Below, piece after piece: positions 8,776-24,806 of a stretch of 64,000 nt of DNA (position 1 is the stretch's first letter; each line of letters starts with the position of its first letter). The notes under the pieces were generated by a model. The model worked only from the letters and a program-made list of their open reading frames with translations, did no database searches and had not been told where the DNA came from. Source of the DNA: Verrucomicrobiia bacterium (GTDB lineage: Bacteria; Verrucomicrobiota; Verrucomicrobiia; Verrucomicrobiales; Akkermansiaceae); assembly GCA_947462875.1 (NCBI GenBank), contig CANHQJ010000008.1, forward strand, positions 1 to 64,000. Direction: 5' to 3'. A program made the position numbers and the translations under genes.

Positions 8776-8906
8776 AGTGGGTTCGGCATCATGCTACAGC
8801 CGCTCCGAATCCCGTGCCAAGCGTTCTTTGCTTTATCCGTTGCGTAAAATCTGATCCGTCGCCCGAAAAGGGCGCGGAAATTCTCACGATCCTCGGGGTA
8901 TTGCTT

Positions 8907-8937
8907 GCCAAGAGCCGTGATTTGTTTTGATCTTGGC
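8907..8937. promoter_or_regulatory. inverted repeat just upstream of pyrF
   Basis: Perfect 7-bp arms GCCAAGA (8907-8913) and TCTTGGC (8931-8937) with a 17-nt loop end 2 bp before the pyrF ATG. It could be an operator or a leader stem near the ribosome entry site. No promoter hexamers could be fixed with confidence, so its role is open. Confidence 0.3.
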
Positions 8938-8939
8938 GC

Positions 8940-9716
8940 ATGCGTTTCTCGGAAAAACTGGCTCAACGAATCATCGTCACCGGCTCCCGTCTCTGTGTGG
9001 GGCTCGATCCCCGGCCTGTGGATGGCGACATCACGGCTGTGGAGGACTTTCTTAAGACGGTGGTCGATCAGACCTGGCGGCATGCCGCGGCATTCAAGCC
9101 GAACATGGCCTATTTCGAAGCGATGGGGCTGCGCGGCATTGAGATTCTCGACCGCATGCTGTCCTGGATGCCGCGCGAGGTGCCGATCATTCTCGATGCC
9201 AAGCGCAGCGACATCGGCGAAACGCAGAAATACTATGCGCATAGTTATTTCGCCCATTGGCAGGTCGATGCCGTGACCTTGAATCCGTTTCTCGGCTACG
9301 ATTCCATCGAGCCCTTTCTCGACTGGACGGGCAAAGCGGTCTATCTGCTGGCGGTGACATCGAATGCCGGATCCGCGGACTTCCAGCAGCAAGTGCTGGC
9401 GGATGGCCGTTCGGTGTTCGAGCTGGTCACGGCGCTGGGAGAGCGGGCCGCGACGGAGGGAAGAGCTACGGATGTCGGCTATGTGGTCGGGCTGACCAAT
9501 GCCGCCGGTGTCCTGGGCAAAATCCCCGACGCGCCCTTGTTGGTGCCGGGTCTGGGGGCACAGGGGGGCGATTTGGCGGCGCTGGCGGCGGCGGGTCGCA
9601 CGGCACCGGACGTCATCAACGTCTCGCGCGGGATCTTGTATGCGGGAGACGATAGCAGCTATGAACAGCGCGCGGCCACATGGGCGGCTCGCATCCGCGA
9701 GGCGTATCAGGGCTGA
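8940..9716 (+). CDS. pyrF: orotidine 5'-phosphate decarboxylase
   Basis: 258 aa. The signature DAKRSDIGET is at residues 86-95 with catalytic Lys88, preceded by GLDPRP at 21-26. The length and the T-x-N-x-x-L-G-Y-D-S block (VTLNPFLGYDS) indicate the longer type 2 PyrF. It decarboxylates OMP to UMP in the last step of pyrimidine synthesis. The final 13 bases of the gene, including the stop codon, are the left copy of an exact direct repeat whose right copy is at 10394-10406, so the gene's 3' end is a junction of the downstream insertion but its coding sequence is intact. Confidence 0.93.
   Translation: MRFSEKLAQRIIVTGSRLCVGLDPRPVDGDITAVEDFLKTVVDQTWRHAAAFKPNMAYFEAMGLRGIEILDRMLSWMPREVPIILDAKRSDIGETQKYYAHSYFAHWQVDAVTLNPFLGYDSIEPFLDWTGKAVYLLAVTSNAGSADFQQQVLADGRSVFELVTALGERAATEGRATDVGYVVGLTNAAGVLGKIPDAPLLVPGLGAQGGDLAALAAAGRTAPDVINVSRGILYAGDDSSYEQRAATWAARIREAYQG
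9704..9716. repeat. 13-bp direct repeat, left copy (end of pyrF)
   Basis: GTATCAGGGCTGA, identical to 10394-10406. The two copies bracket a low-GC block with the ankyrin gene. The bases before and after the two copies differ, so the match is exactly 13 bp. Confidence 0.85.
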
Positions 9717-9736
9717 GAGAGTGAGGCGGCAGTAAA

Positions 9737-10120
9737 ATGGGTGATAGGCGACAACTTAATGACATCTTAGCCGACGCATATTGCCACACTAGGGCGTGCC
9801 AAACGGGTGTTAGCGGGATCAACGAGATGGATCTGTGCGGAACGCCTCTCCATCTATTTGCAACCAGGGGCGACTTCGATGCGTGTAAAATTCTATTGGA
9901 TTCTGGGGCTTTGGTGGATATTCGGGACGGCGACGGATACACGCAGTTGCATGCCGCTACCTTACAAGGCCACTTAGATGTAGTGAAGCTCTTGCTTGCT
10001 CGGGGATCTGACCCAAGTTTGAACACGCCAATGTTTACGACATGCGAACTCGCCGAGGAATATCCTGAAGTTCTCAAAGTAATCAGAGAGGCTATAGACA
10101 GAGGACCTTTAGACACCTAG
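9737..10120 (+). CDS. small ankyrin-repeat protein
   Basis: 127 aa. Two clear ankyrin repeats lie in the middle: DLCGTPLHLFATRGDFDACK with ILLDSGALVDIRD, then GDGYTQLHAATLQGHLDVVK with LLLARGSDPSLN. A less clear third repeat may follow at the C-terminus (ELAEEYPEVLKVI). There is no signal peptide, so a cytoplasmic protein-binding role is likely. Codon use and GC content are lower than in both neighbours and the gene sits inside the block bounded by 13-bp direct repeats, which points to acquisition. The partner is unknown. Confidence 0.8.
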   Translation: MGDRRQLNDILADAYCHTRACQTGVSGINEMDLCGTPLHLFATRGDFDACKILLDSGALVDIRDGDGYTQLHAATLQGHLDVVKLLLARGSDPSLNTPMFTTCELAEEYPEVLKVIREAIDRGPLDT

Positions 10121-10284
10121 CAATCTGCCCAATAATGTTGGACCGTTTCCACAGCGCTAAGTTCATTTGCGTTATTAACCCGCGCACCATTTAGCTAGCA
10201 TCACCGGATACTATCGCAATACGCATTAGTAATGACATGACAAAACGGACAGCAACAGCTCATTGTCGCCGCGTATTACTGATA

Positions 10285-10357
10285 CACTGAAGGCCACTGA
10301 AATCAGTGAAAAGATAAGAGAAATTCAGCGTCCTCAGTAGATTTCAGTTTATCAGTG
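10285..10357. repeat. two-box imperfect inverted repeat in the inserted block
   Basis: Left arm CACTGA (10285-10290), 5-nt gap, ACTGAAATC (10296-10304). Right arm GATTTCAGT (10340-10348), 3-nt gap, TCAGTG (10352-10357). All 15 boxed bases pair and the gaps form an internal loop; the apical loop is 35 nt. A second palindrome, CACTGA-AA-TCAGTG, is nested at 10295-10308 and would compete with the long stem. The two-box layout recalls integron attC sites in shape only; the consensus core sites are missing. Confidence 0.6.
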
Positions 10358-10393
10358 GTTAGTTTGATTGTAGTCAAATCAGACGTTTCCTTT

Positions 10394-10406
10394 GTATCAG
10401 GGCTGA
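10394..10406. repeat. 13-bp direct repeat, right copy
   Basis: GTATCAGGGCTGA, identical to the last 13 bases of pyrF at 9704-9716. It ends 6 bp before the stop of the convergent zinc-ribbon gene. Confidence 0.85.
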
Positions 10407-10412
10407 TCGCGA

Positions 10413-11114
10413 TCAATCCGGATAGAGCATGCGACCGCAGTTTTCACACTGCGTCAGCTCGGTGGCGGCGAGTACTTTCACCAGAGTCGTGGGCACCAGT
10501 TTCATGTGGCATCCGCTGCACATGCCATTGCTGGCTTGTACAACAGCGGTGCCGTTTTTGGTTTTCATCAGACGCTCGTATAGCGGCAGAACCTCCGGGT
10601 CGATGGCGGCGGCGAGCTGGCTGCGCTCCGCGGAAAATTCCTCGCGTCGCGCGAGCAGTTGCTCCTTTTTGGTTTTCAGGTCGTTCAAGTCCTCGTTCAC
10701 CAGCGCCTGCGAGCGCGCCAGTTGCGCTTCCGCCTCCTTGACCTTGAGGCGCAAGGCATCGGCCTGCTCCATCAGTTCGAGCTCCTGTGTTTCGAGTTGA
10801 TCGATCTCTTTTTCGTAGCGGATCACCTCATTGCCCAGCGCGGTGTATTCCTCATTCTTGCGCGTTTCAAACTGTTGCTGCTTGAGGCGCGTGATGGTGT
10901 TGCGGCGTGTGCCGATGTCGAGTTCGATTTTTTTGGTAGCCACTTCGCATTGGCGCAGGGCGTCGATCGCCTTGGCCAGCAGTGCCTGGTCACCGGACAG
11001 CAGGCCGTTGGCCTGAGCTTCGTCACGAGGGATCTTTTCCAGGTCGCGGGCGATGCTGAGGAACTTTTGATCGCGTTCCTGGAGGATGAGTAAATCTTTG
11101 ATGACTGGCTGCAT
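10413..11114 (-). CDS. coiled-coil protein with C-terminal C4 zinc ribbon
   Basis: 233 aa from MQPVIKDLLILQERDQ. Residues about 10-175 are a heptad-rich, charged coiled coil, and the C-terminus has a four-cysteine ribbon (CSGCHMKL ... CENCGRMLYPD). This is the zf-RING_7 / C4-type zinc ribbon family (CdsZ, HP0958-like), whose members assist flagellar or type III assembly in some bacteria and have unassigned roles in most others. No flagellar or secretion genes are nearby. The upstream ATG in frame would add a non-conserved Arg/His-rich stretch, so the later start was chosen. Confidence 0.8.
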   Translation of the reverse strand: MQPVIKDLLILQERDQKFLSIARDLEKIPRDEAQANGLLSGDQALLAKAIDALRQCEVATKKIELDIGTRRNTITRLKQQQFETRKNEEYTALGNEVIRYEKEIDQLETQELELMEQADALRLKVKEAEAQLARSQALVNEDLNDLKTKKEQLLARREEFSAERSQLAAAIDPEVLPLYERLMKTKNGTAVVQASNGMCSGCHMKLVPTTLVKVLAATELTQCENCGRMLYPD

Positions 11115-11226
11115 GGATGGATGATGTACGGCATGGCGGCATCGGGCAAGCGTTCGCGCGAAAAAAATCATTTTGGCCAGCTTGTGATTGCCAGCGGCGG
11201 GGGCATGCGATAGTCTGTTTGTCGAA

Positions 11227-12807
11227 ATGCCTGAGGAAGATTTCCATCAAATTCAGATCCGCTGCCCCAAGTGCACCCAGCGTTTTCGCGTGGGTCCCGA
11301 GTTGAAAGGGCGCATGGTCGAGTGTGGTGCGTGCGAATTCCGCTTCCGGGTGGACGATGAGGCGCAGGTCAAGAACCGGAAATTTTATCCCGGCGAAAAA
11401 AGGGATCCCACGCTGAACCGGTACTCGCGCCAACCACATACCGAGTTTGCGGCATCCACACCCTTGGTGGCCGCGCATTATTCCGAGGCTCCTGATGTCG
11501 AGCGGTTCGAGCCTACTCCCATCGGCAAAATCATTGTCGGCATTGTGGGCGGCGGCGTGATGGCGGTCACGCTGCTCGTTCTGATCACAGGTGCTTCCCA
11601 GCATGGTTTGTTAGGCGGGGTGACGACGGATCGGCGTCTGGTGATCGCTGGTTTTGCCGCGGTGGTGGGCACCATGATGATCATCTATGCCAATCCTCGC
11701 GCGCGCGGGAAAGCGACGTTTTTTGCTTTGCTGGGCGCGCTGGCGCTGGTCTCCACGCCCATGTTCCTTACCGAGGGATCGAAGAAACTGGGCGGTGGAA
11801 ATCAAAATGCCGCACCTGTGGCTCCGCCCACGGTTACGGTAGACGGGCGCAAGAAAATTTCCGACCTGAAAGTGGAAGTTGGCTACGCACCGATGGAGAC
11901 GGCGCTTCTACAGGCGGGGCAGGGCGGCCGTGTCGTGGGCCTCTGGCTCAAAGGTCTCCGCGAGAGCAATGCGGAGATGGTGTTTGCCTACCTGATGCGT
12001 GTCAGCCAGGCTACGGAGCAGTCGCACCTGTATCCCCGGATGAATCAGAATTCCCTGATCGTGCTGATCAATCCGAAACTTTCGTTAGAAGAGCTGGCCA
12101 TCCAGTGCGCGCGTATCGGAGAAGTCAACGAGACATTGCCGGAACTCCATCTGATCGAGGTGAAAGTGGAAAACGAGCGCTTTGCTGAGCAATCGCTTGC
12201 GAAGCTCAGCGACAAGGAGGATGGCGCGTTTTACCAACTGAATTTGCGCGAATTGCAGGGCATTGACATCCGCCGCATCAACGATGCTCTGATGCGCCTG
12301 GCCCTGGCCGAACCGGTGCAGTCGCGCGATGACATCATCAAGCGCATGATCGAGTTGCTAGAGATGAGCGATCGCGAAATGCTGGCCAATATTTGCAAAG
12401 CGATGATCGTGTGGAGCGATGGCAAGGACGGCGCTCCGGAGGCGGCGATGAAGGCATCGGCGGCCCATTTTGCCTCGGCTAAGGATCTGCCCATCGAGGC
12501 CGCCACGTTTCTCGCCAAGTGGCAACAGCCGGACATTTATCCGATTCTGGAACAATTGTGGCTGAAAGAGCCGACGAATTGGGAGGAAGTGTACATGAAA
12601 TCCGGCGCACCGGCCGAAGCGGGGCTGGTCAAGCACTTGACGGAGGGCAGCAACCGGCAGCGCATGTCCGCGGCGCGCATCATCGGGCGTGTGGGTGGGA
12701 AATCCGGCGCGGAGGCCCTCCAGCGTGCGCTCGAAAGCACCACGGATCTCGAGTTGCAAACCAGCTTCACCAACGCCATCGACGCGATCCGCCAACGCCA
12801 GCCGTAG
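11227..12807 (+). CDS. zinc-ribbon membrane protein with helical-repeat C-terminus
   Basis: 526 aa. The N-terminus is an MJ0042-type zinc ribbon (CPKCTQRFRVG ... CGACEFRFRVDD), common in PVC bacteria. Three hydrophobic segments follow between about residues 98 and 180. The C-terminal 300 residues are predicted soluble and helical with HEAT-like elements near the end (LVKHLTEGSN, AARIIGRVGG, ALQRALESTTD). The likely topology puts the ribbon and the repeat domain on the same, cytoplasmic, face. No function is recognised. The start at MPEEDFHQ was preferred over an earlier ATG because it lies right before the ribbon. Confidence 0.7.
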   Translation: MPEEDFHQIQIRCPKCTQRFRVGPELKGRMVECGACEFRFRVDDEAQVKNRKFYPGEKRDPTLNRYSRQPHTEFAASTPLVAAHYSEAPDVERFEPTPIGKIIVGIVGGGVMAVTLLVLITGASQHGLLGGVTTDRRLVIAGFAAVVGTMMIIYANPRARGKATFFALLGALALVSTPMFLTEGSKKLGGGNQNAAPVAPPTVTVDGRKKISDLKVEVGYAPMETALLQAGQGGRVVGLWLKGLRESNAEMVFAYLMRVSQATEQSHLYPRMNQNSLIVLINPKLSLEELAIQCARIGEVNETLPELHLIEVKVENERFAEQSLAKLSDKEDGAFYQLNLRELQGIDIRRINDALMRLALAEPVQSRDDIIKRMIELLEMSDREMLANICKAMIVWSDGKDGAPEAAMKASAAHFASAKDLPIEAATFLAKWQQPDIYPILEQLWLKEPTNWEEVYMKSGAPAEAGLVKHLTEGSNRQRMSAARIIGRVGGKSGAEALQRALESTTDLELQTSFTNAIDAIRQRQP

Positions 12808-12934
12808 AGGCACGGGACATGACAAGGGTGGCGCCATATACCAGCGCCCGACCCGCTGTCAAGTTGATTCCGCAATGGAAAATTTATTGGTTTTTCTCAT
12901 CGCTATTCTTGCGCTTTCGTGCATAGTTGTTAGT

Positions 12935-12957
12935 GGAAATGAAATGGTTTCGTTTCC
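12935..12957 (+). promoter_or_regulatory. leader hairpin upstream of hpf
   Basis: Arms GGAAATGAAA (12935-12944) and TTTCGTTTCC (12948-12957) pair over ten positions with one G-U and a 3-nt loop. It is followed by 23 nt to the hpf ATG and has no T-run, so it is more likely a leader or operator structure than a terminator. Confidence 0.35.
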
Positions 12958-12980
12958 ATAACCATAGAAATTACAAGACC

Positions 12981-13580
12981 ATGCAAACTGCAAATGTGAA
13001 CCCACCGATTACCATTACCGTTCGTCACGAGGAACTGACTCCCTCGCTTCGGGAATACGCCGAGAAGAAGATCGAAAGTCTTCATCTCGACTACCCGAAG
13101 ATCATCGAAGCGAAGGTGATTCTCGACGTTCAGAAAAACCGACACATTGCGGAAATCATTCTTTTTTGCGCCAATCACATCACCATCGAGGCCCACAGCG
13201 AGGATCGCAGCATGTACGCGGCGATGGACGCCACGATCGAGAAGATCGCTCGGCGCATGCGTAAGCAAAAGACCCGTTTGATGAAACGGAACCGTCCGCA
13301 TCGCAACGAATCGATCCGCTATCTCGAAGAGCGCTATTTCACCGAGGAGGCGATGGATCACCCGGAGGATTCGACACACGATCCCGAGCCCTTCATCATT
13401 CATCCGGACAAATACAAACTGCGCACCATGTACAAAGAGGATGCGATCATGGAGCTGGAGCTGGGAGACCGTCCGTTCGTGCTCTACAAGTCGGCGCGGC
13501 GCGGCTGTCTCACCATCATTTACCGCCGCAAGGATGGTGAATTCGCCTCGCTCGATCTGAATGGAGAAATGCTGGAATGA
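12981..13580 (+). CDS. hpf: ribosome hibernation promoting factor, long form
   Basis: 199 aa. Residues about 8-110 are the S30AE domain (ITVRHEELTPSLREYAEKKI, then DVQKNRHIAEI), which binds the 30S decoding region. Residues about 135-195 are the C-terminal dimerisation domain (IIHPDKYKLRTM, ELGDRPFVLYKS, IIYRRKDGEFASLDL). The two-domain layout marks the long HPF that pairs 70S ribosomes into inactive 100S dimers in stationary phase. The ATG at 12981 was chosen because the earlier in-frame ATG overlaps the leader hairpin and adds unconserved residues. A strong terminator follows the gene. Confidence 0.9.
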   Translation: MQTANVNPPITITVRHEELTPSLREYAEKKIESLHLDYPKIIEAKVILDVQKNRHIAEIILFCANHITIEAHSEDRSMYAAMDATIEKIARRMRKQKTRLMKRNRPHRNESIRYLEERYFTEEAMDHPEDSTHDPEPFIIHPDKYKLRTMYKEDAIMELELGDRPFVLYKSARRGCLTIIYRRKDGEFASLDLNGEMLE

Positions 13581-13616
13581 GCCGTGTGTCAACCACGGCA
13601 TTTACCCCCTATACGC

Positions 13617-13646
13617 AAACAAGCTCCCCGATCGGGGAGCTTGTTT
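13617..13646. terminator. bidirectional terminator between hpf and the ThuA gene
   Basis: A perfect 30-bp palindrome with arms AACAAGCTCCCC-like and a central GATC. It is flanked by an A-rich left and a T-rich right end (TTGTTTCG), so it can work for both convergent genes. Confidence 0.85.
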
Positions 13647-13671
13647 CGTGTAAGGATGGAGATCGCAGCGC

Positions 13672-14523
13672 TTATTTCGCCTTTTTCGAAACGTAGCCTT
13701 CGGCGATGTTGCCTTTGTCATCGAGCTTTCCGCAGGACCAGAGCAGGCCGCGGCAGACCAGGTTGAGGAAACGCTCGTCAGCCACGGTGGCATTGTTGTG
13801 GCCGAGCGTGGTGCTGAAAATCTTGGTCTTTTTGTCGCCGAATTCATTGGTCCAGACGATCACCGCGTGGTTTTTGCCAGGCTGGGTGCCGCCGTCCTGT
13901 TTGCCTTCCGCCAGTGGCTTGGCGGTGGGCCAGTTTTTGAAGTTCCCCTCAATGCCGTGCACGTTGTTGTAGAGTTCCTCGTTGATCGTGGTCCAATCGG
14001 CAAGGCCTTTGACAACCGGATGGTCTTTCGCGGTGTAGGTGATTTCGATGGGCTTCTGCGGACCGTGACCGCTGGATTGCAGACCCAGCATGTTGAACCA
14101 GGCCGCTTCCGGCGCATCCGGGCTCATGGGTTGCTGGAATTTGCCGCTGCGATACGAGTGCATGGCGCAGTGCAGGTTGACGGCAGGCACGCCGTTTTTG
14201 TGGGCATTGACGATGTTGTCGATGATGGTTTTGTCCGTCACATCGGCGGCGCACTCGTCGTGAATCACCACATCGTAGGCCTTGGCCCAGTTCGGGTCTT
14301 TGTAGATGGCGAAGTTCGGCTTGGTCGAGCGGTCATCGGTGTATTCGATGGTCACCTGGCAGTTGACGCGGGCTTCGATGCCTTCGGACAAGATGAACTG
14401 CTGCTTGCCGTAGTCGTGACAGCAACCGCCGATCACGAGGAGAACTTTGAGAGGTTTGACTTCCGCCTGGGCAAAGCCGAGGCTTGCGAAGGCACAACTG
14501 ATAAGGAGCATTTTTCTGATCAT
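13672..14523 (-). CDS. secreted ThuA-like domain protein
   Basis: 283 aa with a signal peptide (MIRKMLLISCAFASLGFAQAE). The mature part is a class I glutamine-amidotransferase-like ThuA fold: VLLVIGGCCHDYGKQQ, YDVVIHDECAADV, GVPAVNLHCAMHSYR and a C-terminal GLLWSCGKL. ThuA proteins are linked to trehalose or other sugar use in some bacteria and are abundant in Verrucomicrobia and Planctomycetes as secreted proteins. A specific substrate cannot be named. The start is the ATG at 14523, which gives the clean signal peptide. It is a single gene ending at the shared terminator. Confidence 0.82.
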   Translation of the reverse strand: MIRKMLLISCAFASLGFAQAEVKPLKVLLVIGGCCHDYGKQQFILSEGIEARVNCQVTIEYTDDRSTKPNFAIYKDPNWAKAYDVVIHDECAADVTDKTIIDNIVNAHKNGVPAVNLHCAMHSYRSGKFQQPMSPDAPEAAWFNMLGLQSSGHGPQKPIEITYTAKDHPVVKGLADWTTINEELYNNVHGIEGNFKNWPTAKPLAEGKQDGGTQPGKNHAVIVWTNEFGDKKTKIFSTTLGHNNATVADERFLNLVCRGLLWSCGKLDDKGNIAEGYVSKKAK

Positions 14524-14618
14524 ACGGGTGAGGTGATTACTGAGCGAAACCGGGGGATTTATCAATGACATTTCTCGCGAGCTGGCGAATCGATCCTAAG
14601 AACCGGATCACAAGTGGG

Positions 14619-15170
14619 TTATTTTATCAGGGAATGCGGGGGGACGGGTGGTTTGCCCGGGATCACTTGGGTGCCGGAGCCTTGGCTTTTCCCGGTCGAG
14701 CGGCCTGCGGCATCGCGGTGCTGGCTGGAAAAACCGCTGGCTCCTGCCTGCGTGTAGGTGTGGCCCGTCAGCCGGCCGCTCGCATCGCGAAAACGGGTTT
14801 GCAAGCTTTGGGAGGACGAAGGCATCCGCGTCTCGGCGGAGCCGGTGAGCCGACCGGACGCATCGCGGAATTGCGTGGACTGGCCGTACGGAGTGCTCCT
14901 GCTTTGCGCGCTGCCCGTCAATCTGCCGCTGGCATCGCGATACTGTGTGGTGGCGCTGCTGCCAAATGGCGCACGGGTCACGGACGTGCCGATCAGGCGA
15001 CCGCTGGCATCGCGAATGGTGCTGGAAATGCTGCCATCTCCCAGCGGTCTGCGTTCGATGGTCTGGAGGATTCTGCCACTGCCATCACGTACCGTCTCCC
15101 GGGTGTTTTGGGCAAACGCAACCGCACACAGCGAGAATGTGGCGAAAAGAAGGGCGGACCAGTGTTTCAT
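14619..15170 (-). CDS. secreted RDASGRLTG tandem-repeat protein
   Basis: 183 aa. A signal peptide (MKHWSALLFATFSLCAVAFA) is followed by six repeats of about 22-25 residues, each opening with [VIYFH]RD[AG][SA]GR and usually LTG or LIG. The DASGR turn and alternating Ser/Thr/Gln-rich strands suggest a small beta-hairpin solenoid, similar in style but not in sequence to YD/RHS repeats. The C-terminus is short and Pro-rich. I do not recognise a named family. Repeats are nearly identical in phase but not in DNA sequence, so this is not a recent DNA slippage product alone. It is a single gene with no partner of known function. Confidence 0.65.
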   Translation of the reverse strand: MKHWSALLFATFSLCAVAFAQNTRETVRDGSGRILQTIERRPLGDGSISSTIRDASGRLIGTSVTRAPFGSSATTQYRDASGRLTGSAQSRSTPYGQSTQFRDASGRLTGSAETRMPSSSQSLQTRFRDASGRLTGHTYTQAGASGFSSQHRDAAGRSTGKSQGSGTQVIPGKPPVPPHSLIK

Positions 15171-17776: not shown

Positions 17777-19336
17777 ATGCATTTGGGAATTGATAGTTCG
17801 ACGCAATCGTTGAGTGGAGTGGTGGTGGATGTGGCTTCGGGCTCCATCGTGGCGGAAATGTCGGTGAATTTCGGCGCGGATCTTCCGGAATATGGTTCGC
17901 CTAACGGATTTCTCCCCGGTGGTGCCGATGGCGAAGTGCATGCGGACCCGCGGCTCTGGCTGGCGGCGTTGGATCGGATGTTGTCAGGCCTGGGGGATCT
18001 GGTGGATTTGTCGCGCATCCGCGCGGTCAGTGGCAGCGGCCAGCAGCACGGGTCGGTCTATGTCGATGGAACTTTTGCCGAGCGCCTGGAGGCCTTGGAG
18101 CCGGAAGCGGATCTGGTCGCGCAGTTGGCCGGTTCATTGAGCCGTGCGACATCGCCGATCTGGATGGATACTTCCACGGGGACGCAATGCCGGGAAATCG
18201 CAGCGGCGATGTGCGGAAATGCGGAAGTGGGCAAACGCAGCGGCTCCGGTGCGATCGAGCGTTTTACCGGTCCGCAGATTCGCAAATTCTGGCAACAGGA
18301 TCCCGATGGGTATCAGCGGACCTCGCGCGTTCATTTGGTGAGCTCGTTTCTTTGTTCGGTGCTCGCTGGCAAGCATGCGCCTATCGATTTCGGCGATGGC
18401 GCGGGAATGAATCTGATGAACCTTGCCGCGCGGCAATGGGATCACGGCCTGGTGGACGCCACGGCGCCACAATTGATGGTCAAGCTGCCAGAGTTGGCGG
18501 CAGCGGGCAGTCCGGTGGGGGCGATCGCGGAGTATTTTGTTGTGAAGTATGGTTTTTCCCCGGATTGTCAGGTGGGGGTGTTTACCGGCGATAATCCGGC
18601 ATCGCTGGTCGGCATGGGCGCGACCACACCCGGGCAGGTGGTGATTTCGTTAGGCACGAGCGACACCTTTTTTGCCGGGATGGATGCCGCGCACACGGAT
18701 CCGCGCGGCTTCGGCCATGTCTTCGGCAACCCCGGCGGGGGCTACATGTGTTTGGTCTGTTTCCGCAATGGTTCTCTGGCGCGCGAGGCGTTGCGCGATC
18801 AGTATCATCTGGACTGGTCGGCCTTCGAGCGGTCATCCCTGGCGCATACGGAAGCGGGCAATCAGGGCAACCGCATGCTGCCATTTTTCGGTCCGGAAAT
18901 CACGCCGCGTCTGGATATCCAGCAACCGGTACGCCGGGGCAGCGAGGCGTTCGAGCGCGGCGAGGAACCGCTGCTGCAAGTGCGCGGCTTGCTGGAGGGG
19001 CAGTTTTTGAACATGAAGCATCACACCGACTGGATCGGCATCAAGGTGGATCGCATTTTGCTGACGGGTGGAGCTTCGCGCAATGACGGCATCGCGCAGA
19101 TTGTCGCGGATGTGTTTGGCGCTCCGGTCGAGAGACTGGCGATCGCGAACTCGGCCGCCCTCGGCGCGGCGATTCTGGCGGCCGTGACGGATGGTCACGC
19201 GATGGAGCCTTTGCAGTCGATGTTCTGCCAACCCGCCGCCGATTCCCGCATCGATCCGACTCCCGGAGTGAACTACGGGGAAGCGCTGGCGGATTATGTT
19301 TCGCTGTTGGAGGAATACCGCAGCAGTCAAGGCTGA
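17777..19336 (+). CDS. FGGY-family carbohydrate kinase, xylulokinase-like
   Basis: 519 aa. Begins MHLGIDSSTQSLSG, the FGGY nucleotide-binding start, followed by SGSGQQHGSVYVDG near residue 85 and SPIWMDTST, which match the xylulokinase region that reads the sugar. The C-terminal half has ISLGTSDTFFAG and ILLTGGASRND, the second ATPase lobe. It should phosphorylate a keto-pentose or related sugar with ATP. The exact sugar is unproven because no isomerase or transporter lies adjacent. The ATG at 17777 was chosen because residues ahead of it break the conserved N-terminus. Confidence 0.83.
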   Translation: MHLGIDSSTQSLSGVVVDVASGSIVAEMSVNFGADLPEYGSPNGFLPGGADGEVHADPRLWLAALDRMLSGLGDLVDLSRIRAVSGSGQQHGSVYVDGTFAERLEALEPEADLVAQLAGSLSRATSPIWMDTSTGTQCREIAAAMCGNAEVGKRSGSGAIERFTGPQIRKFWQQDPDGYQRTSRVHLVSSFLCSVLAGKHAPIDFGDGAGMNLMNLAARQWDHGLVDATAPQLMVKLPELAAAGSPVGAIAEYFVVKYGFSPDCQVGVFTGDNPASLVGMGATTPGQVVISLGTSDTFFAGMDAAHTDPRGFGHVFGNPGGGYMCLVCFRNGSLAREALRDQYHLDWSAFERSSLAHTEAGNQGNRMLPFFGPEITPRLDIQQPVRRGSEAFERGEEPLLQVRGLLEGQFLNMKHHTDWIGIKVDRILLTGGASRNDGIAQIVADVFGAPVERLAIANSAALGAAILAAVTDGHAMEPLQSMFCQPAADSRIDPTPGVNYGEALADYVSLLEEYRSSQG

Positions 19337-19354
19337 GGTTGTCCGGAGCGGTGA

Positions 19355-20185
19355 TCAGGAAAGATAGGGACTGGCGAGTGCGGTGTAATCCTGTGCGGCC
19401 AGGCCCTCCTGGCACAGCTCTGTCATGCGCCGCGAAACGGTGCTCATGGCAGGCAGCGAGAGTCCCATTTGCTGCGCGAACTCAAGCGCGTAAACCGAAT
19501 CCTTGCGCATGTTATCGAGCGAGAAATGGGTATCGAAGTCGCCCGTGAGCATGCCGGGCAATTTCATTTTCGCGAGAGCCGATGCGGTGCCGTGTTGGGT
19601 GATGACTTGTTCGAATGCCTCCTTGCTGATGCCGTGGGCGAGCGATAGCCCGAGTGCCTCGGAGAGTGCCTGGATCTGGCAGGCAGCGATGAGATTGGTC
19701 GCGAGTTTGATGACCGTCGCATTGCCACAGGCTCCCATGGGGATCATGGCGCTGGCGGTGGGGGTGAGGATTTTTTCCGCCCGGGCGACGGCGGCATCGG
19801 CCCCCGCGAGGTAATACATGAGCTTGCCATCGGTGGCGGCGATTTTTGATCCGGTAAAGGGGGCGTCCACAAACGCGCAGCCGATGGCGGCGCATTGCTC
19901 GGCGAGCCAGAGCGTGGTCGGCAGATCGATCGTCGAGTGATTCATCAGCAGGTGCCGCGTGCCCAGCACGGGGCGGATTTGCTCGAACACGGAACGCAGG
20001 GCCTGTGCGTCTTTCAGATAGAAGCTGAGGACGTCCGAGGTGCGAGCGGCCTCTGCGGCATCGGCTACGAAGTCAGACAATTCCTTGGGGGTGCGGTTCC
20101 AGCGGGTGACAGTCTCGCCTGCCTGTTGCCAGTTGTCAGCACAGCGCGAGCCGATGATTCCCATGCCAAATACGGTGATGTTCAT
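19355..20185 (-). CDS. NAD(P)-binding beta-hydroxyacid dehydrogenase family protein
   Basis: 276 aa. The Rossmann motif GMGIIG is at residues 7-12 (MNITVFGMGIIGSR), the cofactor-discriminating WNRTPKEL follows at about residue 29, and the catalytic-lysine segment VIKLATNLIAA lies in the middle. These place it in the 3-hydroxyisobutyrate dehydrogenase/6-phosphogluconate dehydrogenase superfamily. The Arg in WNRT suggests NADP preference. It could reduce succinic semialdehyde, glyoxylate or tartronate semialdehyde; context does not decide. It converges on the kinase gene with an 18-bp gap. Confidence 0.82.
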   Translation of the reverse strand: MNITVFGMGIIGSRCADNWQQAGETVTRWNRTPKELSDFVADAAEAARTSDVLSFYLKDAQALRSVFEQIRPVLGTRHLLMNHSTIDLPTTLWLAEQCAAIGCAFVDAPFTGSKIAATDGKLMYYLAGADAAVARAEKILTPTASAMIPMGACGNATVIKLATNLIAACQIQALSEALGLSLAHGISKEAFEQVITQHGTASALAKMKLPGMLTGDFDTHFSLDNMRKDSVYALEFAQQMGLSLPAMSTVSRRMTELCQEGLAAQDYTALASPYLS

Positions 20186-20206
20186 GCGTGACGCGATGAT
20201 ACATGC

Positions 20207-21118
20207 TTATTGACCGTTTTCCAACTGAGTTTTGGATTTGCGGCGGAATTGTTCGTCGCGCATTTTTTTCAGATACTCGAAGTAGCGCTGCTGGGCATCG
20301 AGATCCGGTTGGTTCGATGTCGGCTTCGCCTGCGGACCGTATTTTTTCCATGGTCCGAAAGGCACCTGGGAATCCTCGACAAAGCGCCAATGCACCTGGC
20401 TGGAATTGGCGATGCCGAGGTAATCGCGCACGGCGGGGGAAATATCGATGCCGGCCCCTTTGTTGCTGGTGTTGATGGGACGTTTGTCGCCGAACACATA
20501 GGGCCAGTCATCCACGACAAACGGGCCCACATCCTCCCACTGCGCATAGCACGAGCGATTGTTCGAATAGACCTGGAGCCAGCGTCCTTTCAGAGTGGAG
20601 TTACCATCTCCCTTGGCGACGCGATGGAACCATGGCACGACCTTGCTGGCCTCGGGCCGATAGCCGCTGCGTTGTTTGTCGTTGTAGGGGAGGGCGATGT
20701 AGAAGGGATTGAGTTTGGGGACGAAATTTTTGGGACGGAACTCGCCGCTGCTGTGCGAGGCGATGCGTTTCATGGGGTCCGGGTCATCGTAGCCGCCATA
20801 ATTGTCCGCCCAGTTCAGATCCCACGAGGAGACGTGGTTCGGCACGGGGTTGTTCTGGCTGGGTTGTTCGCCGATCCAGAAAGCGGTGGAGGTGATATTG
20901 AGTTTCCACGGATAGAGCGTGCGTTCCGCGGGGGCGGCGGGGCGGGCGGCGGATGTGCTGCCGCGCGACGGCACGACGCGCATGCCGCTGGGTATGACCA
21001 CGCGCGGACCACCCGTGCTGTTTTGCGCCGCGGCGATGCCCGCCAAGACGGCAATAACCGTCACGCCCGCGCGAAGTGCGCGGGTGCATGTCCATGGTGC
21101 GGGCAATGGGAAGCGCAT
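20207..21118 (-). CDS. secreted protein with a DPBB/RlpA-like domain
   Basis: 303 aa. A hydrophobic N-terminal segment (ALRAGVTVIAVLAGIAAAQ) indicates export. Around residues 205-260 the pattern CYAQWEDVGPFVVDDW ... GIDISPAVRDYLGI resembles the double-psi beta-barrel of RlpA-type proteins, where V-T-D-x-G-P-F and I-D-L-S-x-A-A-x-x-L-G are key. The Asp before GPF and the Asp in GIDIS are kept, so a barrel with carbohydrate or murein contact is plausible. The rest has no match I recognise, and a Gln/Lys-rich helical tail closes the protein. Family assignment is inference from motif shape. Confidence 0.6.
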   Translation of the reverse strand: MRFPLPAPWTCTRALRAGVTVIAVLAGIAAAQNSTGGPRVVIPSGMRVVPSRGSTSAARPAAPAERTLYPWKLNITSTAFWIGEQPSQNNPVPNHVSSWDLNWADNYGGYDDPDPMKRIASHSSGEFRPKNFVPKLNPFYIALPYNDKQRSGYRPEASKVVPWFHRVAKGDGNSTLKGRWLQVYSNNRSCYAQWEDVGPFVVDDWPYVFGDKRPINTSNKGAGIDISPAVRDYLGIANSSQVHWRFVEDSQVPFGPWKKYGPQAKPTSNQPDLDAQQRYFEYLKKMRDEQFRRKSKTQLENGQ

Positions 21119-21298
21119 GGCGATGGAGGGGCCCCTTGCGCGTTACGCATGGGCTGCGCGTAAGTTGACACAGCCCATGAAACGCATCAAGCAGTTTTTC
21201 CCGACTCATCGTTGCATTGCCAGTATCACAAAATTGAACAGGCCCCGCCAAGATCCCCCTTGCCATGCGGGGGAGATCTGTGCATGGTTTGCCCGCTC

Positions 21299-22594
21299 AT
21301 GGCCGTCTCATCCTTCCAATCACTGCCCGGTTTTCGCGACTTCCTGCCGCGCGATTTCGCGGTGCGCCAGTATCTTCAGGAAACCTGGCGTGCGACGGCG
21401 CGGCGGCATGGATTTGTGGAGTATGAAACGCCCTTGATCGAAGACACGGGACTCTATCTGAAAAAATCCGGCGGTGAGTTGTCCACACAGCTGTTTCGTT
21501 TTACCGATCAGGGAGGTCGAGATATCACCTTGCGCCCGGAAGTTACCGCCTCTCTCGCGAGGCTGGCGGCGGATCACCAGCGCGATTTCCCCAAACCGCT
21601 CAAGTGGTTCGAGATCGGTCAGTGCTTCCGCTTTGAAAAGCCGCAAAAGGGCAGGGGACGCGAGTTTTTCCAGTTCAATGTCGATATCCTCGGCGAAAGC
21701 GCGGCGCAGGCCGATGCCGAATTGTTAGCCGTGGCGATCGATACCATGCGCGCTTTCGGTTTTGAAAAAGACGACTACCAGGTGCGCGTGTCCGATCGAC
21801 AGGCCTGGGCGGATTTCGCCGCCAAGCGCGGACTGGACTCCGAGCAACTCGCGGCCTTCCTGCAGATCGTCGACAAACTCGAACGCGAGCGGCCCGAGGT
21901 GCTGACAGAAAAACTCGCGGCGCTGGGGATCGCACTCGAGGAGGTGAAGGAATTCATCGCGAATCCCGAGAACGCTTCCGAGGCCTACCGCACCTTGCTC
22001 GCGGATCTCACCGCGCGCGGATGGGGGGAATTCGTGCGCTGGGATCTCTCGATCGTGCGCGGCCTGGCCTACTACACCGGGCTGGTGTTTGAGGTGTTCG
22101 ATGCCCGTGCTTCCATGCGCGCCGTCGCGGGTGGGGGTCGCTACGATACGCTGGTGTCGACCATTTCCGATGGGAAAATCGACCTGCCAGCGACCGGCTT
22201 CGCGATGGGGGACTATGTGATTCGCAATTTGATCGAAGAAACGCCCCACGCCCTCATGCAGATGGAAGTCTGGCTGCAGCGGAATCAGGCGGGTTGCGAT
22301 GTCTATGTGGTGATCGATCAGGAGGAAAAACGCGCCGATGCGCTGCGTCTCGTCACCGATCTTCGCACGGCGGGCGTGTCCGTGGATTTCCCGCTGATGC
22401 CGATGAAGTATAACAAGCAACTGCAACGCGCCGAGCAGGCGGGAGCGCGGTTTGCGCTGATCGTCGGCCAGGAAGATGAACAGCGGAAACTGAAAATCCT
22501 CGCCAGCCGCAGCGATGTCATGCTTTCCGCCGAGGGAATCGTGGAGGAAATCATCCAGCGCCTCCACCGTCCCGATGGCCCGCTGCTGGCCTGA
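21299..22594 (+). CDS. hisS: histidyl-tRNA synthetase
   Basis: 431 aa, class II aminoacyl-tRNA synthetase. Motif 1 region PGFRDFLPRDF opens the protein; motif 2 is FEIGQCFRFEKPQKGRGREFFQ-like with conserved Arg pair; the histidine signature GLAYYTGLVFEVFD and the motif 3 region (GFAMGDYVIRNL) are present, followed by an anticodon-binding domain (VYVVIDQEEKRADALRL onward). It charges tRNA-His. The ATG at 21299 was preferred over an upstream in-frame start that would add an unrelated Cys/Pro-rich leader. It precedes the sucCD promoter region but no terminator is evident between them. Confidence 0.92.
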   Translation: MAVSSFQSLPGFRDFLPRDFAVRQYLQETWRATARRHGFVEYETPLIEDTGLYLKKSGGELSTQLFRFTDQGGRDITLRPEVTASLARLAADHQRDFPKPLKWFEIGQCFRFEKPQKGRGREFFQFNVDILGESAAQADAELLAVAIDTMRAFGFEKDDYQVRVSDRQAWADFAAKRGLDSEQLAAFLQIVDKLERERPEVLTEKLAALGIALEEVKEFIANPENASEAYRTLLADLTARGWGEFVRWDLSIVRGLAYYTGLVFEVFDARASMRAVAGGGRYDTLVSTISDGKIDLPATGFAMGDYVIRNLIEETPHALMQMEVWLQRNQAGCDVYVVIDQEEKRADALRLVTDLRTAGVSVDFPLMPMKYNKQLQRAEQAGARFALIVGQEDEQRKLKILASRSDVMLSAEGIVEEIIQRLHRPDGPLLA

Positions 22595-22636
22595 GCGGAG
22601 CTTCCACAAATCGGCAGGAAAAAATTTCGACAAATC

Positions 22637-22676
22637 TTGACCTAGGGGAATCCCTCCCCTAGTTTCCGCGCGGAAA
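22637..22676 (+). promoter_or_regulatory. candidate sucC promoter with two abutting palindromes
   Basis: TTGACC (22637-22642) and TAGTTT (22660-22665) are -35 and -10-like with a 17-bp spacer. Inverted repeat CTAGGGG (22642-22648) / CCCCTAG (22656-22662) fills that spacer, placed as an operator would be. A second perfect palindrome of 14 bp, TTTCCGCGCGGAAA, abuts it at 22663-22676. The sucC ATG follows 17 bp later. The promoter assignment is inference; the palindromes are direct. Confidence 0.42.
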
Positions 22677-22692
22677 ATTTTTCAACAAGCGT

Positions 22693-23874
22693 ATGAACAT
22701 CCACGAATACCAAGCAAAAGAGCTCTTTGACCGCTTCCAAGTCCCCAGTCCGAAAGGGCGCGTCGCCTCCACACCTGCCGAGGCGGAAGCCGCTGCACGG
22801 GAATTCGCTGGTTCGCCTCTGGTGATCAAGGCCCAGGTGCATGCCGGTGGTCGTGGCAAGGGCACATTCAAAAACGGCTTCAAGGGCGGTGTGCATTTGA
22901 TCGAATCTCCCGAACAAGCGGCGGAATTCGCCGGCAAGATGCTCAATGAAACGCTCGTTACCGTGCAAACCGGTGAAGCGGGCCGCCTCGTGCGCAAGGT
23001 GATGATCGCGGAAGCCGTGGACATCACGCACGAATACTACCTCGCCATCCTGATGGATCGTGCGACCTGCCGTCCTGTCATCGTCGCTTCCACCGAAGGC
23101 GGTATGAACATCGAGGACGTGGCACACAACACTCCCGAAAAAATCATCCGCCAGTTCATCCACCCGCTGCTCGGCCTGCAGGCGTATGAAGTGCGCAAAA
23201 TCACCGCCGCTCTCGGCCTGACGGGAGATTTCGCCAAGCAGTTCGCGAAATTGCTCGGCAATCTCTACAAGCTTTTTATCAGCTGCGATTGCTCGATGCT
23301 GGAAATCAACCCGCTGGTCACCACACCTGATGGCCGCGTGCTCGCACTGGATGCCAAATTCGGCTTCGATGACAACGCTCTCTATCGCCATCCCGATATC
23401 GTCGCCATGCGCGATAAGGAGGAGGAAGATCCCCGTGAAGTCGCGGCCTCCGAATACGATCTGAACTACATCGGCCTCGATGGCAACATCGCCTGTCTCG
23501 TCAACGGAGCCGGTCTGGCCATGGCGACGATGGACATCATTCAACACTACGGCGGTGAGCCTGCCAACTTCCTCGACGTGGGCGGTGGTGCTTCCAAGGA
23601 GCAAGTGACCGCTGCCTTCAAGATCATCCTCGGCGACCCGAAAGTGAAAGGCATCATGATCAATATCTTCGGTGGCATCATGGACTGCAACGTGATCGCG
23701 GAAGGCGTGGTCGCGGCAGCCAAGGAAACCGGCCTGCCGATTCCCCTGGTCGTTCGCCTCGAAGGCAACAACGTCGAAGCTGGCAAAGCCACCCTCGCCG
23801 CCAGCGGCATCAACATCACCGCCGCCACCACCATGGCCGATGCGGCGGAGAAAATCGTCGCTCTCGTGGGTTAA
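22693..23874 (+). CDS. sucC: succinyl-CoA synthetase beta subunit
   Basis: 393 aa. Opens [15 protein letters not shown], the typical SucC start, with an ATP-grasp domain ([20 protein letters not shown]) and the C-terminal CoA-ligase domain ([35 protein letters not shown]). With SucD it makes succinate and ATP or GTP from succinyl-CoA in the TCA cycle. sucD follows after 35 bp, so the two are one operon. The leader carries two adjacent palindromes. Confidence 0.95.
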
Positions 23875-23909
23875 ATCGTTCGATCCAACACCTCATACCT
23901 CATCTCACC

Positions 23910-24806
23910 ATGTCCATCCTCATCAACGAAAACACCAAAGTCCTGATTCAGGGCATCACCGGCAGCTTTGGCGCGCGCCATGCCTCGCTTTCCCTCGCCT
24001 ACGGCACCAAAGTCGTGGCCGGCGTCACTCCGGGCAAAGGCGGTCAATTGTTCGAAAACACCGTGCCGATCTTCAATGGCGTGGCTGATGCCGTGCGCGA
24101 AACAGGAGCCACCGCCTCCGCGATTTTTGTGCCGCCTCCGTTCGCCGCCGATGCCATTCTCGAAGCTGCGGATGCTGGCGTGGAGCTCATCGTCTGTATC
24201 ACGGAAGGCATTCCTGTCATGGACATGATGCGCGTCAAGGAGGCCATCAAGGGGCTGCCCGTGCGCCTCGTCGGCCCGAACTGCCCCGGTCTGGTGACTC
24301 CCGGCTACGGTGAAAAATCCCACGGTGGCTGCCGCATCGGCATCGCCCCGGGCTACATCCACAAGCGTGGCAACGTTGGCGTTGTATCGCGCTCCGGCAC
24401 TCTCACCTATGAGGCGGTGTTCCAGTTGACGCAACTCGGCTACGGCCAGAGCACCTGCGTCGGCATCGGTGGCGACCCGATCAATGGCACCTCCCACCTC
24501 GATGTGCTGCAAATGTTCAACGAAGACCCTGAGACCGAGGCCATCATCATGATCGGTGAAATCGGCGGCACGGCTGAAGTCGAAGCCGCACGCTGGGCCA
24601 AGAAAAACTGCAAGAAGCCCATCGCCGGATTCATCGCCGGTGCCACCGCACCTCCGGGACGCCGCATGGGTCACGCCGGTGCGATCGTCGGCGGCGAGGA
24701 AGACACCGCCGAGGCGAAAAAACGCATCCTCGCCGAGTGCGGCATCGCCGTGGCGGAGACGCCAAGCGACATGGCCACCACCCTGCTCGCACGCTGGGGC
24801 AAGTAA
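23910..24806 (+). CDS. sucD: succinyl-CoA synthetase alpha subunit
   Basis: 298 aa. [21 protein letters not shown] is the CoA-binding start, and the phosphorylated histidine is His255 in [11 protein letters not shown]. Length and all segments agree with SucD. It pairs with SucC, and the operon is closed by a terminator whose T-run touches the stop codon of the convergent glmS. Confidence 0.96.

Follow-up and report, generated by a model that had tools for sequence, protein, structure and literature searches.

Lineage-specific islets that consist of a single gene and are flanked by short direct repeats represent transposition-like or illegitimate insertions. Integron gene cassettes, another kind of one-gene unit, are marked by the attC consensus boxes RYYYAAC and GTTRRRY. 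Among small bacterial ankyrin proteins, Imm-ank is listed with the immunity proteins (PMC3482391), and Bd3460 of Bdellovibrio is described as having a mass of 23 kDa, a signal peptide and six repeats and as sharing an operon with the enzyme that it targets (PMC4686830). In the window, i.e. the whole stretch of 64,000 nucleotides that was analysed, a block with one ankyrin gene (ank) lies between pyrF and a convergent cdsZ-like gene (Table 1). There is good support for a lineage-specific insertion of this block that duplicated 13 bp of the target.

Table 1 Features of the pyrF-cdsZ region (positions in the window)
Feature	Position	Strand	Evidence or remark
pyrF, orotidine-5'-phosphate decarboxylase, intact	8940..9716	+	TIGR02127, 202 bits vs cut-off 110.6
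Left 13-bp direct repeat GTATCAGGGCTGA, identical to the last 13 bases of pyrF including the stop codon	9704..9716	+	
Inserted unique DNA, 677 bp, 47.1% G+C	9717..10393	+	G004 and G001 lack it at their pyrF-cdsZ junctions
GAGG, possible ribosome-binding site, 10 nt 5' of the ank start codon	9723..9726	+	Suggested by the sequence
ank, gene of a 127-aa ankyrin-repeat protein	9737..10120	+	Open reading frame and Pfam
Imperfect palindrome of (C)CACTGA motifs, copy of a dispersed repeat	10278..10360		Match of model R1 at 10267-10366
Right 13-bp direct repeat	10394..10406	+	Exact match
Original 6-bp gap, pyrF stop codon to cdsZ-like stop codon	10407..10412		
cdsZ-like zinc-ribbon coiled-coil gene, convergent with pyrF	10413..11171	-	Zn_ribbon_9 and CT398_CC over Pfam cut-offs

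The first-pass annotation had described an exact 13-bp direct repeat around the ankyrin gene. Both copies of GTATCAGGGCTGA were found to be exact, and with up to two mismatches allowed the 64-kb window contains no other match. Since at least two matches at this tolerance were also obtained with 23 of 100 shuffles, the count of the 13-mer is by itself not the evidence. The two copies are likewise the only exact ones in the own genome (G000; 3.95 Mb, 39 contigs). Copies with one mismatch occur at seven places, two of which (L036 and L037) also sit at the stop codon ending a long reading frame. Near these two no second copy of the 13-mer was found; the L036 variant is found one more time, on a different contig (L040). 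Duplication and unique DNA together amount to a gain of 690 bp. For the cdsZ-like gene, the NCBIfam model CdsZ gave 83 bits, which is under its cut-off of 275. The right junction (10395-10424), corresponding to the pyrF-cdsZ junction in the empty state, forms an imperfect palindrome with 15-nt arms that are 80% complementary. It overlaps the ends of both genes and is perhaps a two-way terminator.

The empty site was detected in the congener G004. When the window was compared by blastn with the initial 80 kb of contig G004:C8, its positions 8893-9716 were aligned to 19175-19998 and positions 10394-15134 to 19986-24724. The two G004 alignments overlap by exactly 13 bp with nothing between them, and the overlap is identical to the 13-mer at 12 of 13 positions. 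Hence, the boundaries of the repeat and those of the extra DNA fall at the same positions. At the junction, G004 has GCGTATCAAGGCTGATGG, and the own genome, with the block and one 13-mer omitted, has GCGTATCAGGGCTGATCG. Thus, a clean empty site with one 13-mer, which had been set beforehand as a test, was seen in a relative. The earlier expectation that an intact pyrF and a short gap are left after removal of the block also agrees with the 6 bp up to the cdsZ-like stop codon and with the empty state of G004. In G001, a second congener, pyrF is located directly beside the same convergent cdsZ-like gene without the block; the tail at this junction has diverged. The pair of pyrF and the cdsZ-like gene was present on the examined stretch in three of ten genus genomes (G000, G001 and G004). 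On the pyrF stretch of the other seven the cdsZ-like gene was not found, the stretch of L005 ending about 380 bp past pyrF. Over 1542 aligned positions the flanks showed 81.4% identity between G000 and G004, 72.3% between G000 and G001 and 69.8% between G004 and G001. As the more distant congener G001 is also without the block, parsimony favours a gain in the own lineage. A DNA search, with up to two candidates scored per genome, did not detect the block in the nine other genus genomes.

The block had been noted as lower in GC, and its 47.1% G+C compares with 59.2% for the window; among the 677-bp windows of the 64 kb, 0.55% are as low. The GC3 values are 0.52 for ank, 0.75 for pyrF and 0.71 for the cdsZ-like gene. 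The block is single-copy in the own genome, and no recurrence of its ends was found. Outside the palindrome, the block DNA had no match in 260 family and 386 order genomes with up to two candidates scored per genome; these sets overlap and contain the own genome, which is counted in all genome tallies given here, and the order genomes are a draw. There was no match in 72,556 plasmid records either, and no donor was found in the searched genomes or plasmid records. A second insertion of the block was detected neither in the own genome nor in the searched order genomes (up to two candidates scored per genome). The insertion was seen as a single event, and one event is too few to establish 13 bp as a rule.

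The only part of the block that was matched elsewhere in these family and order searches is the palindrome (about 10278-10361), with 74-88% identity at eight places in five genomes of genus g13. It spans about 83 bp and has four (C)CACTGA-like motifs per arm. The alignment comprised eight sequences, namely the window and seven of the eight other places, L078 being left out. The covariance model of the palindrome matched ten places in G008, one in G006 and one in the own genome. Strand-wise matches, which mostly count one place once per strand, numbered 43 in G171, 46 in G194, 82 in G159, 89 in G164, six in G200, four in G021 and none in G033, with up to 150 candidates scored per genome. G001, G003, G004 and G009 gave no match to the palindrome, with 141 of 141, 150 of 361, 150 of 180 and 150 of 473 candidates scored, respectively. 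In relatives it appears as a dispersed repeat, e.g. at the loci L101, L127, L131, L132 and L137 and at many loci of g13. The presence in the block of a repeat that was not detected in the sister G004 would fit a donor in a related lineage. Beside the CACTGA palindrome of L133 (about 1600-1720), another palindrome was noticed by eye, which is built of CACAGATT-type motifs and has a CCGAAGTT arm, as if differing cores of iterated motifs had been swapped between the same outer arms. The search for known RNA families in 9600-10500 gave only a sub-threshold match to mir-205 (17.8 bits of 55 needed, E 0.29), which was rejected as a chance match arising from the palindrome. No occurrence of the exact strings CACAGAGACACAGAG, CACGAAGGACACGAAG and CACTGATACACTGA / TCAGTGGTTTCAGTG / CCACTGAAACACTGA was found in the searched papers.

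The ank protein matched the Pfam families Ank_2, Ank_4 and Ank with E-values from 8.6e-14 to 2.3e-13; PF12796 reached 52.3 bits vs a curated cut-off of 27.3. In the family search (up to 16 candidates scored per genome), the best two relatives by E-value showed 43% and 51% identity over partial length, and the best identity in 56 other genomes was 40%. The relatives of the protein are generic only. The only other match in the own genome at E 0.001 (G000:C18:21626-21856) belongs to a 518-aa open frame and is remote, with 34% identity. An origin from a plasmid was rejected, as the block DNA was not matched in the plasmid records and the ankyrin proteins of ten such records are 31-46% identical to ank. 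Weak ankyrin matches with PHROG and PADLOC were read as generic, and in phage records ank resembles three Wolbachia WO records at 34-36% identity. A phage origin was also discarded: 53 peptide-seed matches were obtained in viral contigs, none of which encodes a relative, and the searches for a 20-mer of ank and for the CACTGA pattern gave no match each. The structure predicted from the single sequence (mean pLDDT 46) was too low in confidence to use. Judged from its ankyrin repeats, the protein is most likely a cytosolic protein binder. A putative role as an orphan of the immunity type is possible; the neighbours of ank are pyrF and the cdsZ-like gene, with no toxin gene beside it.

According to the first-pass annotation, ank had no operon context. 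This has to be revised, because the insertion places ank 20 nt behind the stop codon of pyrF on the same strand. The block starts equally 20 nt 5' of the ank start codon; hence, an own promoter does not fit upstream of ank within the block. With this short leader ank probably rides on the pyrF transcript, and its expression would then depend on read-through from pyrF. A consensus scan of 8800-9736 gave no promoter-like site. As none was found before pyrF either, the null result upstream of ank carries little weight. The consensus scan of the region gave no terminator-like site on the plus strand. The tail behind ank can fold over the palindrome, but 10121-10440 taken together does not exceed its shuffles in stability (z-score -1.03, 13 of 100 shuffles as stable).

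Regarding the history of the site, it is very unlikely that the block is ancestral and was precisely lost in G004 and G001 via recombination between the 13-mers. Recombination between short direct repeats would leave this empty site, but two independent exact losses would be needed, which is much less likely than one gain, and the foreign composition, the failure to find the block in the nine other genus genomes and the diverged tail of G001 also speak against it. Slightly less credible still is an assembly chimera with a block that does not exist in the cell. G000 is an assembly of 39 contigs; however, 13 bp is below the usual assembly k-mers, and the neighbours and the open reading frame are intact. 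The earlier reading had allowed for a target duplication or a site-specific integration at the gene end. The duplication was confirmed by the empty site of G004; the site-specific part was not borne out by the pyrF loci of relatives. For 80 other pyrF loci (those kept of 129 pyrF relatives detected, with 361 to 2987 bp of downstream DNA), no repeat of the pyrF tail of at least 13 bp that brackets downstream DNA was found; the lone longer repeat is an 18-bp local tandem in L269, 12 bp behind the stop codon. The motif search of these loci missed the palindrome behind pyrF of G008 (L208). A search for further blocks ended by the same 13-mer had been proposed as well and yielded none in the own genome. 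A site-specific element would produce the same edge at the stop codon, and the core repeat restores the end of pyrF. Since the two stop codons were originally separated by 6 bp, though, there are 20 possible placements of a 13-bp duplication in which neither gene is damaged. The observed placement is the edge case, one of 20, or two of 20 if the mirror case is counted. Thus, the stop-codon edge is weak evidence for an attachment site, and the survival of both genes by itself suffices to account for a location at the end of the gene. The data do not support a dedicated attachment site. Five open reading frames of at least 40 aa overlap the block (127, 166, 128, 78 and 56 aa), the first of which is the ankyrin gene. 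Neither a recombinase nor a further gene besides ank was recognised on the block in the Pfam search, which covered the three longest frames and gave no match above cut-off for the 166-aa and 128-aa ones. It is unlikely, given these results, that the block is a passive one-gene cassette integrated by a site-specific tyrosine recombinase supplied in trans, for which the 13-mer would be the shared core and the 3' end of pyrF the attachment site. The exact edge, the restored pyrF, the intact convergent neighbour, the short leader, the palindrome in the 3' tail and the imperfect palindrome at the right junction are consistent with such a cassette. The single local tandem apart, recurrent use of pyrF was not seen, and no further element sharing this core turned up in the genome.

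Equally unlikely is an origin as a non-autonomous, MITE-like transposon that duplicated 13 bp of its target and is akin to the family's palindromic CACTGA elements. The block contains one copy of the palindrome, and in G008 five of the ten palindromes lie within longer elements, both ends of which begin with CCC and hold CCGAAG-like motifs. Four of these five are flanked by an exact 5-bp duplication (ATGAA, TTAAA, TTGAA and ATGAT), the fifth is not. One of the four is located directly behind pyrF (L009 900-1560; G008:C78:9460-9592) and probably reached the same gene end by a separate insertion. The gene past this element resembles by eye the pyrF neighbour of G006 (L004) and not the cdsZ-like gene. 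Against kinship with these elements, the duplication of the block is 13 bp instead of 5 bp, the block ends do not recur, and the palindrome stops short of both of them. In the terminal stretches of the block no exact inverted match of at least 6 bp was found; this and the single copy in the own genome speak against a MITE or an insertion sequence. The first-pass observation that a transposase and terminal inverted repeats are lacking holds for what was tested. Palindrome copies lie inside an exact repeat pair of at least 12 bp somewhat more often than controls, at 20 of 44 vs 14 of 54 loci, but the spacings and sequences of these pairs are unrelated and define no common block. The 44 loci exclude L143, L152 and L162 near contig ends and duplicates on the opposite strand; the controls were loci of other genomes, 54 of 80 being long enough. 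That an integron gene cassette entered a secondary site has next to no probability. One gene with a short leader and a palindromic 3' region would suit a cassette, but RYYYAAC does not occur in 9704-10430 and GTTRRRY occurs once, at 10137. Therefore no attC pair exists, the cassette was rejected, and a 13-bp duplication would not be expected from it. Ku had no match in G000 or the nine other genus genomes and was detected in three of 19 searched genomes, all of other families of the order. Since Ku was not found, classical end joining is disfavoured.

On balance, we lean towards a one-off insertion of foreign DNA with a 13-bp duplication, without a dedicated attachment site and with read-through from pyrF. 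The insertion and the duplication are observed. The incoming DNA would have been a foreign fragment of 677 bp with the ank gene, no room for a promoter and a 3' tail with the palindrome. This fragment would have been acquired a single time, in this species' own lineage, with the 6-bp gap that separates the two convergent genes as its target. The target was presumably opened with a stagger of 13 bp and filled in after strand transfer, so that the last 13 bases of pyrF were doubled; this is the simplest account of the duplication. Both neighbouring genes were left whole. The event may have been transposition-like or end-joining-like, with an enzyme that is not encoded on the block. Afterwards, ank would be expressed by read-through as part of a short pyrF-ank unit, as the 20-nt leader suggests. 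It is rather doubtful that the block stands for a class of promoterless, passive one-gene cassettes that are mobilised in trans by a recombinase, settle behind the stop codons of convergent pairs with 13-bp duplications and are expressed from an upstream housekeeping gene. If more blocks of the family had 13-bp duplications, this would point to an unrecognised mobility system for small cassettes.

In comparison with the known systems, the block shares with integron gene cassettes the one-gene unit, the short leader and the palindrome in the 3' part, but differs by the missing attC pair and the 13-bp target duplication. It has the same CACTGA palindrome as the MITE-type elements of G008, one of which is also just behind pyrF. 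In contrast to these elements with 5-bp duplication and CCC-type inverted ends, it shows a duplication of 13 bp, has no inverted ends and carries a gene. Like Imm-ank and Bd3460, as far as these are described in the cited sources, ank is a small bacterial ankyrin protein. Unlike the Imm-ank immunity proteins listed there, it has no toxin gene beside it, and Bd3460 differs by the signal peptide, the six repeats and the operon with its target enzyme reported for it (PMC4686830). The single-gene islets are comparable in several respects: low G+C, one gene, an empty site in a congener, a short target duplication and no recombinase gene. The duplication of 13 bp exceeds a usual microhomology in length. 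The locus gives a clean snapshot of how a foreign gene enters a chromosome harmlessly, with its convergent neighbours whole and expression possible from a housekeeping gene. In general, the block represents the acquisition of one gene, well defined and of a known kind, and is, as a single case, fairly ordinary.
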